Position numbers and translations under genes: made by a program
Shown: piece by piece, positions 10,177 through 24,180 of the stretch
How positions within the stretch are numbered: position 1 is the first letter of the stretch
How the letters are laid out: every line of letters begins with the position of its first letter
DNA from: Acidilobaceae archaeon
GTDB taxonomy: Archaea > Thermoproteota > Thermoprotei_A > Sulfolobales > Acidilobaceae
DNA: 40,942 nt
Reading direction: 5' to 3'
NCBI GenBank assembly: GCA_028276165.1
Contig: JAPYWV010000003.1
Span: 1-40,942, forward strand
The notes under the pieces: generated by a model
Told to the model about the DNA's origin: nothing
The model's database searches: none
What the model saw: only the letters and a program-made list of their open reading frames with translations

Positions 10177-10602
10177 CTACCCTCCCACGGAGTAGCGTCT
10201 GAGCATAAGCACGTCTATGTACTCCCTAATGGTTTCATCGACAACCTCCACCCTCTTCCTCTCATCCCTTGAGAAGAGTAGCCTACCTTCACTAAAGACG
10301 GAGTACTTAAATGGTAGAGGAGCTTCGTTTAGTACGTGAACATCTACTGGTATCCCGAGGGTTAAGCTTAGCTTTACCGCTAGGTCCACCTCATACTCAT
10401 GGGCTCTACTAGGGTCCTCCACCCAGATGGCGATATCCACGTCTCTGAACTTATCCCTTTTAACGAACCCGCCATAGATGTATGCGAAGGAGACCCCTTC
10501 TACTCTCTCCAATAACTCTCTCAACCTACATACAATGGCCTCCCTCTCGCTCTCACCAACCCTAAAATACCTAAGCTCGGCATCAGCAGACGTGCTAACC
10601 AC
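10177..10602 (-). CDS. MNT-type nucleotidyltransferase (putative antitoxin of a HEPN/MNT pair)
   Basis: FAYIYGGFVKRDKFRDVDIAIWVED nucleotidyltransferase motif; overlaps the HepT-like ORF. Confidence 0.85.
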   Translation of the reverse strand: MVSTSADAELRYFRVGESEREAIVCRLRELLERVEGVSFAYIYGGFVKRDKFRDVDIAIWVEDPSRAHEYEVDLAVKLSLTLGIPVDVHVLNEAPLPFKYSVFSEGRLLFSRDERKRVEVVDETIREYIDVLMLRRYSVGG

Positions 10603-10960
10603 CCTCTAGGAGCAACCTCACATACCTAATATAGCTTTCGAAATCGCTTAAACCTTCTCTAACACTCTCATAGACTCTCGCATCAGATACAGCCCAGTAA
10701 CGATGTACAAGGAGATTTCTAAGCCGAGCAGCTAAGGCTAACCTATGGGCTAGGTCGCCTGGGATAATACCTTTAACGGCCATCCTATGAAAGCATTGCG
10801 CGTAGCCCTCAACGCTCTCATTATACAAGCTTAGAAGAATCCTCACACAAATGCTTACAGATGCTTCAACCAACTGTATGACCAGGTATCTAATGGAGAT
10901 CCTCTCGCAGATTGAAAGATCATCGAAGCCCTTTAACACTAGGCCACTTAACAATTGCAA
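10595..10960 (-). CDS. HepT-like HEPN-domain protein (DUF86-type, putative toxin)
   Basis: RNLLVHRYW matches RX4HXY; helical protein directly upstream of MNT with a short overlap. Confidence 0.85.
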   Translation of the reverse strand: MQLLSGLVLKGFDDLSICERISIRYLVIQLVEASVSICVRILLSLYNESVEGYAQCFHRMAVKGIIPGDLAHRLALAARLRNLLVHRYWAVSDARVYESVREGLSDFESYIRYVRLLLEGG

Positions 10961-11195: not shown

Positions 11196-12050
11196 CTACT
11201 GACGGTTTACTCGTTTATATGTGCTTAATAGCTCTCTTATGGTTTTCCCTGTTGCTATTATTGGTGCGTTCTTCGGTATCTTGAACATTGCCGCTAATAC
11301 GTTGCACTTTGCTCTTAGTAGGTGTAGCGTCTCTTTAGTCTCCTTGTCTTCTAGGTGTGCTTCTAGGTTTGCTATACCCTTTGCTATTATGAACCCCTCG
11401 TTTAGGTACAATACTGGTGGTTTGTTGCCAGGTGTTTTGACCACCTCTATCTCCGTTGTACTCTCCAGCTCCTCCCATGTCACGTCTATCTCGTAACTCT
11501 CACTTCTAACAGCTAGTTTAACCTTATAGCCGTTCGCTCTAAGAGCCTCCGCTAGTACCATGTCAACAGCCGCTTCCCCGGCATTATCAACTGCAATGTA
11601 GACGATCTCATCCCTTGGTATCTCTGGTATCTCCTCTACCCAAGGCCTATCCCATAAGGCCTTCTCTAGATCCACAGGCTCATAGCCTAAGACACTTGTA
11701 TCGATTATGTTCGCTGCAGCGGCTAGCCTTAACGCTTCATCTAATCTCCAGCCTACCGCCCTAAGGTAATCCTCGACCCTCCTTGCAATCCTCCAGCCTA
11801 GGGTCCAGAGCTCCCTCTTATAACCCGCATATGGATCTTTAGACCTAGCAATCCTCCTAACCAGGTTGAACGACCTTGTGAAAGCCTCAGTTCTACTCTG
11901 CTCCTCTAGGAGCTCCGAGAGCTCCCTCAGGAGGCGGGGGGCCTCGCTATCCAGGTTGAGTCTGTATAAGTCACTAAGCCTTGAGCTTACAAGACAGATT
12001 CTACACAGCTTCTCGTCAATCCACAATGTTGTTAACCACCTCCACGACAC
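11196..12050 (-). CDS. DUF89-family metal-dependent phosphatase
   Basis: CRICL, DPYAGYKRE, VDNAGEAAVDMVLAE, AKGIANLEAHLE, LLRAKCNVLA. Confidence 0.75.
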   Translation of the reverse strand: MSWRWLTTLWIDEKLCRICLVSSRLSDLYRLNLDSEAPRLLRELSELLEEQSRTEAFTRSFNLVRRIARSKDPYAGYKRELWTLGWRIARRVEDYLRAVGWRLDEALRLAAAANIIDTSVLGYEPVDLEKALWDRPWVEEIPEIPRDEIVYIAVDNAGEAAVDMVLAEALRANGYKVKLAVRSESYEIDVTWEELESTTEIEVVKTPGNKPPVLYLNEGFIIAKGIANLEAHLEDKETKETLHLLRAKCNVLAAMFKIPKNAPIIATGKTIRELLSTYKRVNRQ

Positions 12051-13050
12051 GTCTTAGATCATCTATGCTCACATCCCCTAGCACACCAACCCTAATCATC
12101 CTATCCTCGTAGACCCCCATGCCCTTAGCTATTATGTAACCGTGCTTGCGAAGCTCTCTAACGATTAGATCTGGGTTTGGAGCCCAGAATGCTGTAACAG
12201 TATAACTCCTATAAGGTTCCCTGGCTACGGGTTCGAGCCTTAGGCTACTGTATAGGGTTTGAGCTCTCAGCCTGTGAACTTCATGGTATCCTTCTACCCC
12301 AAGCTTTAGTATCATATCCAGGGATACGTCGAGCCCGTATAACACGTTTATAGGTGGAGTGTAGGGTGGGTTTAAGGTTGTGGATCCCTTGATCAGCCTC
12401 CTTAAGTCCATGGATGGTGGCACCTTGGCCTTAACTCTGGGTTCTACGCTAACATATAGTATTGAAGCTCCGGGTGGTGCTAAGAACGCCTTGTGTGACG
12501 CCGTTGCTATGACATCAACCCTACCTCTAATGGGCTCAGCTGGCATCCCAGATACGCTATCAACAATCAATATGGCCCCTAGGCTCTCTGCAACCCCCTG
12601 GAGCTTCTCAACACGCCTATTAGCTACACCCATGCTAGTCTCGTTGTGAACCACAGCTACGACCTTAACGTCGCCAATCCTCCTAGCGTAATCCTCTACA
12701 ATATCGGGCTCTACATGGTCTAAGTTTAGCTTGTACACAACCCCGCCTCTGGATTCAATGCTTTCCGCCAACCTCTCCCCGAAGACACCGTTAACCACTA
12801 CTAGAACCCTATCACCGGGGTCTACGTAGTTGTACACAGCTATATCAACAGCTAGGGTGCCCGTACCAGGTGCTATAACGGGGGTTGAGTTGTGGTCGTA
12901 CACCATTCTAAGCTTCTCCACCACCCTCTCAAGCACTTCTCTAAACTCAACACTCCTATGGAAGAGTGGTTGCCTGGCTACAGCCTCTAGAACCTCTCTA
13001 GGTAGCTGGACTGGCCCTGGGGTTAGGAGCTTCAACCCCAAGCACCTCAA
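12016..13050 (-). CDS. Class V aminotransferase (serine/alanine-glyoxylate or phosphoserine aminotransferase-like)
   Basis: LTPGPVQLPREVLEA, APGTGTLAVDIAV, HNETSMGV, VDSVSGMPAEPI, ATASHKAFLAPPG (PLP lysine region). Confidence 0.9.
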   Translation of the reverse strand: MRCLGLKLLTPGPVQLPREVLEAVARQPLFHRSVEFREVLERVVEKLRMVYDHNSTPVIAPGTGTLAVDIAVYNYVDPGDRVLVVVNGVFGERLAESIESRGGVVYKLNLDHVEPDIVEDYARRIGDVKVVAVVHNETSMGVANRRVEKLQGVAESLGAILIVDSVSGMPAEPIRGRVDVIATASHKAFLAPPGASILYVSVEPRVKAKVPPSMDLRRLIKGSTTLNPPYTPPINVLYGLDVSLDMILKLGVEGYHEVHRLRAQTLYSSLRLEPVAREPYRSYTVTAFWAPNPDLIVRELRKHGYIIAKGMGVYEDRMIRVGVLGDVSIDDLRRVVEVVNNIVD

Positions 13051-13963
13051 GTATACCCGCTAAAAGCTCCTCCCCAACCCTCTCCATGGCCTCGATGGTT
13101 TCAGCCCCTATATGGGGGGTTACTATGACCTTAGGGTGTTCTACGAGCTTCCTCAGGGTAGGTGACCTAGGTGGCTCCTCATCCAGCACATCCAAGGCTA
13201 CAGCCCCGAGCCTGTCAACGTGCTTGAGTAACGCTTCGTAATCCACAACAGGCCCCCTACTAGTGTTAACCAGGATAGCATCATCCTTCAGTAGCCTCAG
13301 CCTATCCTCATTCATCATCCTATAGGTTGAAGGTGTTAGTGGGACATGTAATGTCACGATATCGCTTTCCACGAGGAGCTCTTCGAGGCCTACAAGCTCG
13401 CCACCAACACTCTCAACAGCCTCCCTCACATCCCTAACATCGTAGGCTAGAACCCTGGCCCCCATTGCGGTAGCAAACCTAGCAACCCTACTCCCAATCC
13501 TACCAAACCCTATGACACCAAGCTTCTTACCGTAAAGCTCCCTACCCTTGTAAAAACCCTTACTCCAAACACCCCTCTTAACACTATCAATGTGGAGGTG
13601 TAGGCTCCTCAAAGCAACTATGATCAAGCCTATTGTTAGCTCAGCAACACTCTGAGATGAAGCAGTGGGGGCGTTAACAACAGCGATACCCCTGCTAACA
13701 GCGTAATCAACATCAACATTGTCAAGGCCAACACCATACCTAGCTAGAACCCTAAGCCTCAAACCCCTATCTATAACCTCCCTATCAACAACAACACCCC
13801 CCCTAAACACTAGGACATCGAAGCCCTTGATAATGTCTAGGAGCACACCACGAGGGATACCAGGACGGTACTCTACCTCTAAACCAGCCTCCCTCAAACC
13901 CTCAAGAAACCTACCTGAAACCCTATCAACAACAAGAACCCTATACCCGACAAAAGCAGACAC
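12998..13963 (-). CDS. serA: D-3-phosphoglycerate dehydrogenase-like D-2-hydroxyacid dehydrogenase
   Basis: ARYGVGLDNVDVDYA, GKKLGVIGFGRIGSRVA, LVNTSRGPVVDYEAL, VTPHIGAETIEAMERVGEE. Confidence 0.88.
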   Translation of the reverse strand: MSAFVGYRVLVVDRVSGRFLEGLREAGLEVEYRPGIPRGVLLDIIKGFDVLVFRGGVVVDREVIDRGLRLRVLARYGVGLDNVDVDYAVSRGIAVVNAPTASSQSVAELTIGLIIVALRSLHLHIDSVKRGVWSKGFYKGRELYGKKLGVIGFGRIGSRVARFATAMGARVLAYDVRDVREAVESVGGELVGLEELLVESDIVTLHVPLTPSTYRMMNEDRLRLLKDDAILVNTSRGPVVDYEALLKHVDRLGAVALDVLDEEPPRSPTLRKLVEHPKVIVTPHIGAETIEAMERVGEELLAGILEVLGVEAPNPRASPAT

Positions 13964-14097
13964 CAGAGTATAGGAAAGCGGAAGCCCTTAAAAGCTATTA
14001 AGCCTAAAAACCCGATACAATCTACGCCTGTACACAGCTATGTCTACAAGCACGCTTATTAGCTCTGTCTACGCAACGTAAGTTTGGAGATCATCTT

Positions 14098-14322
14098 ATG
14101 AGTGTCGTCATTAGCGTGAGGGTTAAGAGGGAGATTAAGGAGCTCCTGGAAAGTGAGGGTATAAACATAGCAGAGGAGGTTAGAAGGTTCTTAGAGGAGC
14201 TAGCATACAAGGTTAGGATTAGAAAGTATGTTGAGAAATGGGATAGAATGTTAGAGGGTGTAAAGCCTAGCCCGAAAGGTTTCTCTGTATCATCCGTGAG
14301 GGAGGATCGTGAGAGTCATTGA
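14098..14322 (+). CDS. vapB: VapB-type antitoxin
   Basis: Small CopG/AbrB-like ORF (SVVISVRVKREIKELLESEGINIAEEVRRFLEELA) overlapping a PIN-domain gene. Confidence 0.85.
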   Translation: MSVVISVRVKREIKELLESEGINIAEEVRRFLEELAYKVRIRKYVEKWDRMLEGVKPSPKGFSVSSVREDRESH

Positions 14323-14704
14323 TTCCTCTGCGTTAGTGAAATACTTTGCACGGGAAGAGGGTTGGGAGAGGGTGAGAGAGCTCATACTAGAGGGGGTTGT
14401 AACATTAGATTTGGCGATTAAGGAGGTTGCGAACGCTCTCTGGAGGAAGGTTAGAAGGGGGGATATGAGTGCAGATGTAGCTTTAGAGATAATACGGGAT
14501 CTTTCAGAGTCTAAGGCTGTGAGGGTTATGGGCCAGGACGAGTACATTGAGGATGCTTTTAAGATAGCTTTAGAGTACGGAATAACAGTCTACGATTCCC
14601 TCTTCATTGCTCTTGCAGAGAGGCTCGGAGTAGAGCTTATAACATGTGATGGGGTTCAGGGTGGGAAGGCTGTGGCTCGTGGTATTAATGTTGTTTTGTG
14701 TTGA
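14309..14704 (+). CDS. vapC: VapC-type PIN-domain ribonuclease toxin
   Basis: VIDSSALVKYFAREEGWE, LALEYGITVYDSLFIALAERLGVELITCD. Confidence 0.92.
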   Translation: MRVIDSSALVKYFAREEGWERVRELILEGVVTLDLAIKEVANALWRKVRRGDMSADVALEIIRDLSESKAVRVMGQDEYIEDAFKIALEYGITVYDSLFIALAERLGVELITCDGVQGGKAVARGINVVLC

Positions 14705-19266: not shown

Positions 19267-20061
19267 GTGAATGGCGTGAGCTACCTGGAATCCATCAACG
19301 TGCTAGTCGTGGATCTCGACGGGGTAGTATGGATCGGAGGGAAGGCTATAGGGGCTAACGTTAGAGCGCTGAGGAGACTCCAGGAGCACATGAGGATATA
19401 CTATGTAACAAACAACTCGACCAAGAGCAGGCCTGAGTACGCTTCAAAGCTTAGAAGCCTAGGCCTGGAGGCATGGGAGTCCAATGTTATAACGAGTGGT
19501 AGAGCTGCAACACTATGGCTTAAAAGGTTTACCAAGGCTAGGAACGTCTACCTCATAGGAGAGGAGGGCCTTAGGTGGGAGCTGGAGGTGGAAGGCTACC
19601 ATATGGTGGATAGAGGCTTGGAGGCGGAAGCAGTAGTAGTAGGCCTAGACAGGAGGCTCACATACCATAAGCTAGCGGAGGCACTAAAAGCACTGCTAAG
19701 AGGAGCATACTTCATAGCAACAAACCCAGACCACATACTACCAGAAGAGGAAACTCCAATACCGGGAGCAGGAGCAATAATAGCAGCCCTAGAGACAGCA
19801 TCGAAGAGAAAACCAGATGTGATAGCGGGGAAGCCAAACCCATGGATACTAGTATCAACACTAGGGGACATAGACTATAGTAGGGTAGCAGTAGTGGGGG
19901 ATAGAGTAGACACAGACATAGAACTAGCGCTCAGGATAGGAGCAAAACCAATCCTAACACTAACAGGGGTAACGAGAAACCTAGACGAGGAAACCCTGAG
20001 AAGGCTAAGGGAGGCTAATGCAATAGTAGTCAAAGACCTGGGAGAGCTCTTAGCTAGATAA
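19267..20061 (+). CDS. HAD-superfamily (NagD-like) phosphatase
   Basis: VLVVDLDGVVWIGGKAI, YYVTNNSTKSRPEYASKL, GKPNPWI, VAVVGDRVDTDIELALRIGAKPILTLTGVT. Confidence 0.9.
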   Translation: MNGVSYLESINVLVVDLDGVVWIGGKAIGANVRALRRLQEHMRIYYVTNNSTKSRPEYASKLRSLGLEAWESNVITSGRAATLWLKRFTKARNVYLIGEEGLRWELEVEGYHMVDRGLEAEAVVVGLDRRLTYHKLAEALKALLRGAYFIATNPDHILPEEETPIPGAGAIIAALETASKRKPDVIAGKPNPWILVSTLGDIDYSRVAVVGDRVDTDIELALRIGAKPILTLTGVTRNLDEETLRRLREANAIVVKDLGELLAR

Positions 20062-22975: not shown

Positions 22976-23062
22976 TAGTGCTACGAGTACAGCTGCTATA
23001 GCTAAACCTATCGACGCTATCCCCGGTAGGTCGCATAGTATGAGCTCCAAGGGCCCCCTCAC
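22925..23062 (-). CDS. Candidate 45-aa single-TM microprotein
   Basis: Not in the supplied ORF track. GTG start overlaps the gcvT stop (GTGA); reads MRGPLELILCDLPGIASIGLAIAAVLVALLALLRPRLLALLRRRL*. One hydrophobic helix followed by an Arg-rich tail. Confidence 0.4.
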   Translation of the reverse strand: MRGPLELILCDLPGIASIGLAIAAVLVALLALLRPRLLALLRRRL

Positions 23063-24180
23063 CTTCTTATCAGGGGGAAGTCTGATATCCTAGCTTCGTA
23101 CCTCACACCTCTAACCTCGATCTCAACACTCTCCCCTATCAAGGCGTGCCCCGAGCTTATGTAAGCCTGGCCAACCCCCCTCCCTAGCACAGGGCTGTAA
23201 GTCCCACTTGTAACCCACCCTACCTCTAGATCTTCTATGTAGATCTTGTAGCCATGTCTAGGTATTACTCTTGCAGCCTCCTTCCTCATTATAATCCCAA
23301 CCCTAACCCACCTAGCACCCTCCCTCCTACAAGCTCTTAAAGCCTCCTCTCCAATGTAACCCCTCTTGCTCCAGTCTATGGCCCCCATACCGTACCTTAG
23401 GCTGTAGGCGCAGGGGAACCTTTCAGGATCCTCGCCGTACTCGAAACCGCCTAGAGCAAACCCCATCTCTATCCTAAGCGTATCCCTTGCAGCTATCCCA
23501 GCAGGTTTAGCCCCCGCTCTTATAGACTCCTTCAGGATTACGGCTGCGGCCTTAGGCTCGGCTATCACCTCAAACCCATCCTCCCCAGTCCACCCACTCC
23601 TACTAACGATGAAGGTTTTAACCCCGGCTACAACCTCCCCAACCCTAAACTCGAGTGGTTTAAGTGATGAAGCCCACGGGGCTCCAAGCTTCTCCATAAC
23701 ATCAACAGCCCTAGGACCCTGTATAGCTAGCATCGCATAATCGTCCCTTAGATCGACTATATCAACCTTAAACCCCCTGCTTGCAGCTAGACCCCTCATG
23801 TAATCCCTCATGTGATCTGCTACAGCAGCATTAGGTACAACAAGCCATCTCTCACCATCAACGTTATACGGCATCTCGTCATCCTTAACCCTAGCATACT
23901 CGTTAAGAGCGAGAGTAGGGCCACTCATAAACCCAACCTTCGTCCTCGAAACCCTCTTAGTGTAGATAAGCTCAAGCAACTCCAAGACATCAGGGCCGCT
24001 TAGGAGGAGCCTACCCATATGGCTTATATCGAATACACCAACAGAACCCCTAACAGCCATATGCTCCTCAATAGTACTAGTGTAGACCATAGGGACTTCC
24101 CAGCCGGCGAACTCCCCGAAAGAGGCGCCTAGGTCAACGTGGACATCGTGAAGTGGGGTAACCCTCACCACCGCCACCAA
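23059..24180 (-). CDS. gcvT: Glycine cleavage system T protein (aminomethyltransferase)
   Basis: FAGWEVPMVYTSTIEEHMAVRGSVGVFDISHMGR, LAIQGPRAVDVM, SRSGWTGEDGFEV, RIEMGFALGG. Confidence 0.93.
   Translation of the reverse strand: MVAVVRVTPLHDVHVDLGASFGEFAGWEVPMVYTSTIEEHMAVRGSVGVFDISHMGRLLLSGPDVLELLELIYTKRVSRTKVGFMSGPTLALNEYARVKDDEMPYNVDGERWLVVPNAAVADHMRDYMRGLAASRGFKVDIVDLRDDYAMLAIQGPRAVDVMEKLGAPWASSLKPLEFRVGEVVAGVKTFIVSRSGWTGEDGFEVIAEPKAAAVILKESIRAGAKPAGIAARDTLRIEMGFALGGFEYGEDPERFPCAYSLRYGMGAIDWSKRGYIGEEALRACRREGARWVRVGIIMRKEAARVIPRHGYKIYIEDLEVGWVTSGTYSPVLGRGVGQAYISSGHALIGESVEIEVRGVRYEARISDFPLIRR

Follow-up and report, generated by a model that had tools for sequence, protein, structure and literature searches.

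A DUF89-family protein as putative non-homologous phosphoserine phosphatase of an archaeal serine operon

Which enzyme forms serine in the studied archaeal genomes, where SerA-type and transaminase genes are found but no SerB can be recognised? Reconstructions of amino-acid pathways repeatedly lack a phosphoserine phosphatase: GapMind finds the SerB step missing in several bacteria (PMC7311316), and in Desulfovibrio vulgaris the gap was left unfilled (PMC5764234). The question is raised anew by a locus of an Acidilobaceae archaeon, within a window of 40,942 nucleotides (the whole stretch of DNA analysed), which is contig G000:C7 of a 1.71 Mb genome that is 87% complete. A sequence-only reading had noticed three overlapping same-strand ORFs, had named them PGDH-like, class V aminotransferase and DUF89, and had suggested that the DUF89 protein might be the missing phosphatase or, alternatively, a damage-control enzyme acting on a side product. 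The three ORFs are present there, all on the minus strand, and Pfam and NCBIfam family searches agree with the naming. The features are as follows.

13963->12998 (12998..13963), minus strand: PGDH-like gene, short form, 321 aa; proposed first step
13050->12016 (12016..13050), minus strand: class-V aminotransferase gene, putative phosphoserine transaminase, 344 aa; proposed second step
12050->11196 (11196..12050), minus strand: DUF89 / ARMT1-like gene, putative phosphoserine phosphatase, 284 aa as longest ORF; proposed third step
11583..11588, minus strand: codons of the DN motif, Asp155-Asn156, which corresponds to the DN of DUF89 phosphatases from plants and yeast
11484..11507, minus strand: codons of the subfamily signature R182-x3-Y186-E187-x-D189, where canonical DUF89s have K-x3-F-Q-N-D
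13985..13996, minus strand: TATA-like AGCTTTTAAGGG, a possible archaeal operon promoter lying some 28 nt ahead of the PGDH start, a sequence reading of low weight

The longest ORFs probably overstate the true gene overlaps. Relatives of the DUF89 protein start, in the alignment, at 'MW-ID..C', which probably makes the TTG at 12026 the real start, some 11 nt within the aminotransferase gene; the start region of the aminotransferase itself holds three in-frame TTG codons. Overlapping genes suggest coupled translation of an operon, and the conserved linkage described below rules out that the overlap is a mere artefact of long ORFs. On the flanks of the operon lie genes of another kind. Directly downstream of the DUF89 gene is a HepT/MntA type VII toxin-antitoxin pair (10177-10960, minus strand), which scores above both NCBIfam cut-offs, and upstream, divergent from the operon, is a PIN-domain (VapC-like) gene (14309-14704, plus strand) with a small ORF as possible antitoxin.

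How would the three products work together? PGDH would convert 3-phosphoglycerate to 3-phosphohydroxypyruvate, the class-V aminotransferase would convert the latter to O-phospho-L-serine, and the DUF89 protein, a predicted metal-dependent enzyme unrelated to SerB, would release serine from phosphoserine. The first protein matches 2-Hacid_dh_C (PF02826, 9.7e-53) and 2-Hacid_dh (PF00389, 1.2e-26) above the curated Pfam cut-offs, its best NCBIfam score is with the PGDH model TIGR01327 (291.7 bits, versus 213 bits for glyoxylate reductase), and its nearest structures are archaeal PGDHs, 1wwk of Pyrococcus horikoshii (3e-75) and 2ekl (7e-72). The TIGR01327 score lies below the cut-off of 454 bits and covers model positions 1-302 of 525, but the full-length cut-off is not to be expected, because this short form lacks the regulatory part at the C-terminus. 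The aminotransferase matches Aminotran_5 (PF00266, 2.3e-17) above the curated Pfam cut-off and falls far under that of the SerC model TIGR01364 (27.8 versus 443.6 bits). It is a class-V type other than classical SerC, with 2dr1, a 'hypothetical serine aminotransferase' (2e-40), as its nearest structure, so that any role as phosphoserine transaminase would be one of function and not of family.

The third protein, whose gene is the only DUF89 gene detected in the window's genome, matches ARMT1-like_dom (PF01937, formerly DUF89) with 3.6e-23 and 82.7 bits against a cut-off of 25, over profile positions 5-307 of 311. Its AlphaFold2 model (pLDDT 91.7) has 2g8l and 2ffj as best fold matches, and all 15 Foldseek matches at E<=0.001 are DUF89 structures; SerB is absent from these significant matches. 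PF01937 is its sole Pfam family and the NCBIfam models that it hits are those of DUF89, so that it falls outside the HAD-type SerB families TIGR00338 and TIGR01491. The protein could be a phosphoserine phosphatase only as a member of a different family. Nor does it reach the NCBIfam equivalogs for damage-control phosphatases, with 58.9 versus 440 bits for NF040824 and 39.4 versus 500 bits for NF041594. Asp155, Asn156 and Asp189 are invariant in 22 of 22 operon-type sequences and align with the corresponding residues of 1xfi and 3pt1. From their position and conservation, Arg182, Tyr186 and Glu187, which stand ahead of Asp189, are candidates for recognition of the amino-acid part of the substrate. 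We infer the substrate, the metal chemistry and a role of R182, Y186 and E187 in holding that part of the substrate.

Is the arrangement peculiar to this genome? The DUF89 protein was searched against 147 genomes of the window's order, and the gene neighbourhoods of the matches were inspected. Within the order, the gene order PGDH-aminotransferase-DUF89 is found in families f1, f2, f3 and f8, with DUF89 identity down to 35-37%, and the alternative order DUF89-PGDH-aminotransferase in f7 and f10 as well as in one further genus each of f1 and f3. A phylum-wide search adds f22, a Thermoproteaceae-type family with Pyrobaculum and Thermoproteus, in which all 16 loci are linked as PGDH-aminotransferase-DUF89, and one locus of that order in f21. 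The named relatives of the window's DUF89 gene are in Desulfurococcaceae, Ignisphaera and Thermoproteaceae, and a scan of named genomes adds linked loci of Pyrobaculum oguniense TE7, Pyrobaculum sp. WP30 and Thermoproteus sp. AZ2, of Ignisphaera, Caldisphaera and Fervidicoccus bins, and of the korarchaeon Methanodesulfokora washburnensis, which again has PGDH-aminotransferase-DUF89. The linkage, in one order or the other, thus extends over many heat-loving archaea, in at least eight family-level groups of Thermoproteota and in a korarchaeon. The same three genes are adjacent in dozens of genomes and in two orders, so that the linkage is not due to chance, and the existence of two orders means that a single frozen block of inherited genes is insufficient as explanation. 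The conservation of DUF89 with serA across relatives, which the sequence-only reading had proposed as a check, therefore holds across families.

Linkage is not universal among the relatives. In G007, G018, G028 and G039 a DUF89 of the same type is unlinked and the PGDH-aminotransferase pair lies elsewhere, and the neighbourhoods of unlinked copies in f7 and in Vulcanisaeta-type genomes hold no serine gene. In f7, the unlinked copies at L096, L101 and L103 share non-serine neighbours across several genomes, with the PGDH-aminotransferase pair again elsewhere. Three genomes have two copies, one operonic and one alone, on different branches of the tree: G005 (L113 and L102), G021 (L114 and L099) and G133 (L132 and L097).

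What distinguishes the DUF89s that keep company with serine genes? All of the first 27 operon-linked DUF89s examined have the motif R-x3-Y-E-x-D, where canonical DUF89s have K-x3-F-Q-N-D; the former motif is also present in f22 and in every linked protein of the named set that covers the region, and it is absent from the canonical DUF89s inspected. A maximum-likelihood tree built from 108 DUF89s splits off the canonical members by a 100/100 branch; a single row with the motif stands among them, the euryarchaeal L202, which has a long branch and is flagged as unsurely placed. Linkage to PGDH and aminotransferase genes follows the same division, with 41 of 78 rows bearing the motif (YExD) linked versus none of the 30 others; that such linkage is a general trait of DUF89s was considered and is rejected by the latter count. 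Judged by motif and tree, the operon-linked DUF89s are one distinct subfamily marked by R-x3-Y-E-x-D. A subfamily profile gives a clean gap in scores within the order (at least 192 versus at most 163 bits). Outside the order, DUF89s of G464 and G390 that score near 182 bits are canonical, so that membership there cannot be read from the profile score alone. Two f6 genomes encode far-diverged DUF89s (L123 and L127) with the YExD motif and with 'DNLPEL' replacing 'DNAGEA'; these genomes have a SerB of the Glu20/Arg56 type, a distinction that is taken up below.

The distribution of the subfamily follows that of the aminotransferase. The aminotransferase, with a presence threshold of at least 166 bits, is found in 44 of the 147 genomes, and the YExD DUF89 in 43; they occur together in 38 genomes, versus 12.9 expected by a count that ignores shared ancestry and is descriptive. 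The opposite holds for SerK, the ADP-dependent serine kinase, whose gene, in Staphylothermus and Desulfurococcus, is reported to adjoin those of PGDH and an aminotransferase (PMC5120207). SerK is found in 30 of the 147 genomes, three split matches counted, and at the Staphylothermus-type loci L252 and L255 it adjoins PGDH and an aminotransferase. SerK and the YExD DUF89 occur together in a single genome (G124), versus 8.8 expected, ancestry again being ignored. Some genomes (G015, G026, G053 and G125) have the PGDH-aminotransferase pair without a subfamily DUF89.

Might a conventional phosphatase nevertheless take the last step? The SerB cut-off of TIGR00338 is reached by none of the 147 genomes. 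The cut-off of TIGR01491, a 'PSPase-like' HAD model, is exceeded in 64 of them, including the window's own, whose HAD lies outside the window (G000:C130:1867-2433, locus L226:1411-2127), scores 193.7 bits and is remotely similar to the phosphoserine phosphatase of M. jannaschii. In SerB, Glu20 and Arg56 bind phosphoserine (PMC6321591). The HAD of the window's genome has Lys and Asp in their place, and both residues are replaced in all TIGR01491 HADs inspected from subfamily-carrying genomes, mostly by Lys/Arg and Asp/Glu, that is, by opposite charge. The same is true of 14 f22 genomes and of several Vulcanisaeta-type ones. The only HADs found to keep both residues are those of f6 and of genus g10 of f2; none of these genomes is one of the 43 with the subfamily. 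The TIGR01491 HAD is moreover equally present in genomes without the operon, and the label 'PSP-like' is probably misleading in this order.

The search of the window's genome for SerB, also proposed by the sequence-only reading, accordingly yielded no clear SerB: a true SerB is rejected as a candidate, as the PSP-like HAD lacks both recognition residues. A HAD-IIA phosphatase like the phosphoglycolate phosphatase TK1734 is encoded in the window (19267-20061, plus strand); it scores below the cut-off of that model and is not a SerB. Another solution is known in iPSP, a histidine-phosphatase-type phosphoserine phosphatase (PF00300) from Hydrogenobacter. An enzyme of this type is likewise rejected for the window's genome, where PF00300 has no match, as it has none in the sister genome G122. 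Four operon-bearing genomes that are 97-99% complete (G024, G044, G052 and G019) have neither a TIGR01491-type HAD nor a PF00300 histidine phosphatase; their HADs are P-type ATPases and generic members of other HAD groups, and generic HADs are found in every genome examined. The f11 genomes (L263 and L264) have the PGDH-aminotransferase pair, no YExD DUF89 and no PSP-like HAD, and they encode full-length PF00300 proteins, so that they may use an iPSP-type solution. Several lineages solve the last serine step differently.

How should these observations be weighed? We consider it probable that the DUF89 protein is the non-homologous phosphoserine phosphatase of the serine operon. The basis is the linkage in two orders, the single subfamily, the co-occurrence with the aminotransferase, the near-exclusion of SerK and the finding that none of the carriers inspected has a substrate-competent SerB. 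Counting against it are the PSP-like HAD in a window genome that is 87% complete, the generic HADs in the four otherwise clean genomes, the genomes with two copies, the unlinked copies with unrelated neighbours, the PGDH-aminotransferase pairs without a YExD DUF89, and the other substrates of characterised DUF89s. The strongest rival holds that the widespread TIGR01491 HAD is the phosphoserine phosphatase and that the DUF89 protein is a damage-control enzyme, removing a harmful side product formed by PGDH or by the aminotransferase. The above-cut-off score and remote M. jannaschii similarity of the window genome's HAD would fit this, as would the damage-control roles of known DUF89 enzymes (PMC8669784). 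It is unlikely however, as the recognition residues of the HAD are replaced, the HAD is undetected in eight operon-bearing genomes (G005, G019, G024, G044, G048, G052, G057 and G074), and it occurs in genomes without the aminotransferase (G016, G111 and G138, for example). We know of no by-product of the serine pathway that requires a dedicated phosphatase. Of the two roles that had been suggested for the DUF89 protein, the conserved linkage and the lack of a clear SerB thus favour the phosphoserine phosphatase, as a putative assignment.

Might the DUF89 protein act at a branch point instead, dephosphorylating phosphohydroxypyruvate or tuning a phosphoserine pool that also feeds cysteine synthesis, with serine formed mainly elsewhere? 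O-phosphoserine is a precursor of cysteine too in some archaea (PMC5120207), and some genomes have two copies of the subfamily. The near-exclusion of SerK nevertheless points to the main step, several near-complete genomes have no recognisable alternative for it, and we regard a branch-point role as very improbable. A slightly fainter prospect yet is that the operon has nothing to do with serine synthesis and encodes a glyoxylate/hydroxypyruvate reductase and a serine- or alanine-glyoxylate aminotransferase, the DUF89 protein having a related substrate, for instance phosphoglycolate or phosphoglycerate. The aminotransferase does score far below the SerC cut-off in a family that includes alanine-glyoxylate and serine-pyruvate aminotransferases, and a separate glycine cleavage T gene lies in the window (23059-24180). 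The dehydrogenase however scores best with PGDH models and structures, the corresponding PGDH-aminotransferase pair is associated with SerK in relatives (PMC5120207), and a HAD-IIA protein of the phosphoglycolate-phosphatase type is already encoded nearby.

If the DUF89 protein is the phosphoserine phosphatase, what follows? Within a known pathway, one enzyme would then be replaced by a non-homologous one from a phosphatase family that is itself known. More broadly, and with somewhat less assurance, we think it likely that the YExD DUF89s evolved independently as another class of phosphoserine phosphatase beside SerB and iPSP, completing serine synthesis in Pyrobaculum, Thermoproteus, Ignisphaera-type and other Thermoproteota as well as in a korarchaeon, and that part of a 'damage-control' family would thus consist of biosynthetic enzymes. 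A large archaeal branch of DUF89 would gain a biosynthetic substrate, R-x3-Y-E-x-D would serve as a signature for annotation, and the 'PSP-like' HAD family in archaeal genomes would probably be mislabelled. No published claim of a DUF89 role in serine synthesis was found in the literature searched, which leaves most subscription journals outside its coverage, and priority is not established.

Comparison with known systems places the protein within its superfamily and apart from the known members. With the archaeal proteins PH1575 (2g8l) and AF1104 (2ffj) it has the Pfam family and the fold in common (Foldseek E 2e-12 and 3e-10), and with the PH1575, AF1104 and NF040824 DUF89s the N-terminal C-x2-C, the DNAGE motif and the K-G-x-x-N motif; it differs from PH1575 and AF1104 in its 18-22% identity over the fold alignment, in having R-x3-Y-E-x-D for the canonical letters, and in its location in a serine operon. 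The eukaryotic DUF89s (yeast YMR027W, human ARMT1, plant At2g17340, PANK4) are of the same superfamily and have, by alignment, the same DN...D catalytic residues, although the identity of the window's protein to them is 9-18% over the fold alignment. Eukaryotic DUF89s are described as metal-dependent phosphatases, and the characterised DUF89s act on sugar phosphates, such as fructose-1-phosphate, and on 4'-phosphopantetheine derivatives (PMC8669784). The resemblance to SerK is one of place: both are encoded beside PGDH and aminotransferase genes, and SerK acts at the phosphoserine/serine node, as the DUF89 protein would, but SerK, a ParB-like kinase, makes phosphoserine instead of removing its phosphate (PMC5120207). 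With the HAD phosphoserine phosphatase SerB (MJ1594, 1f5s), the DUF89 protein would have in common an identical reaction and place in the pathway, the families being unrelated. iPSP is, as the DUF89 protein would be, a non-homologous replacement of SerB, drawn from a family different from DUF89.
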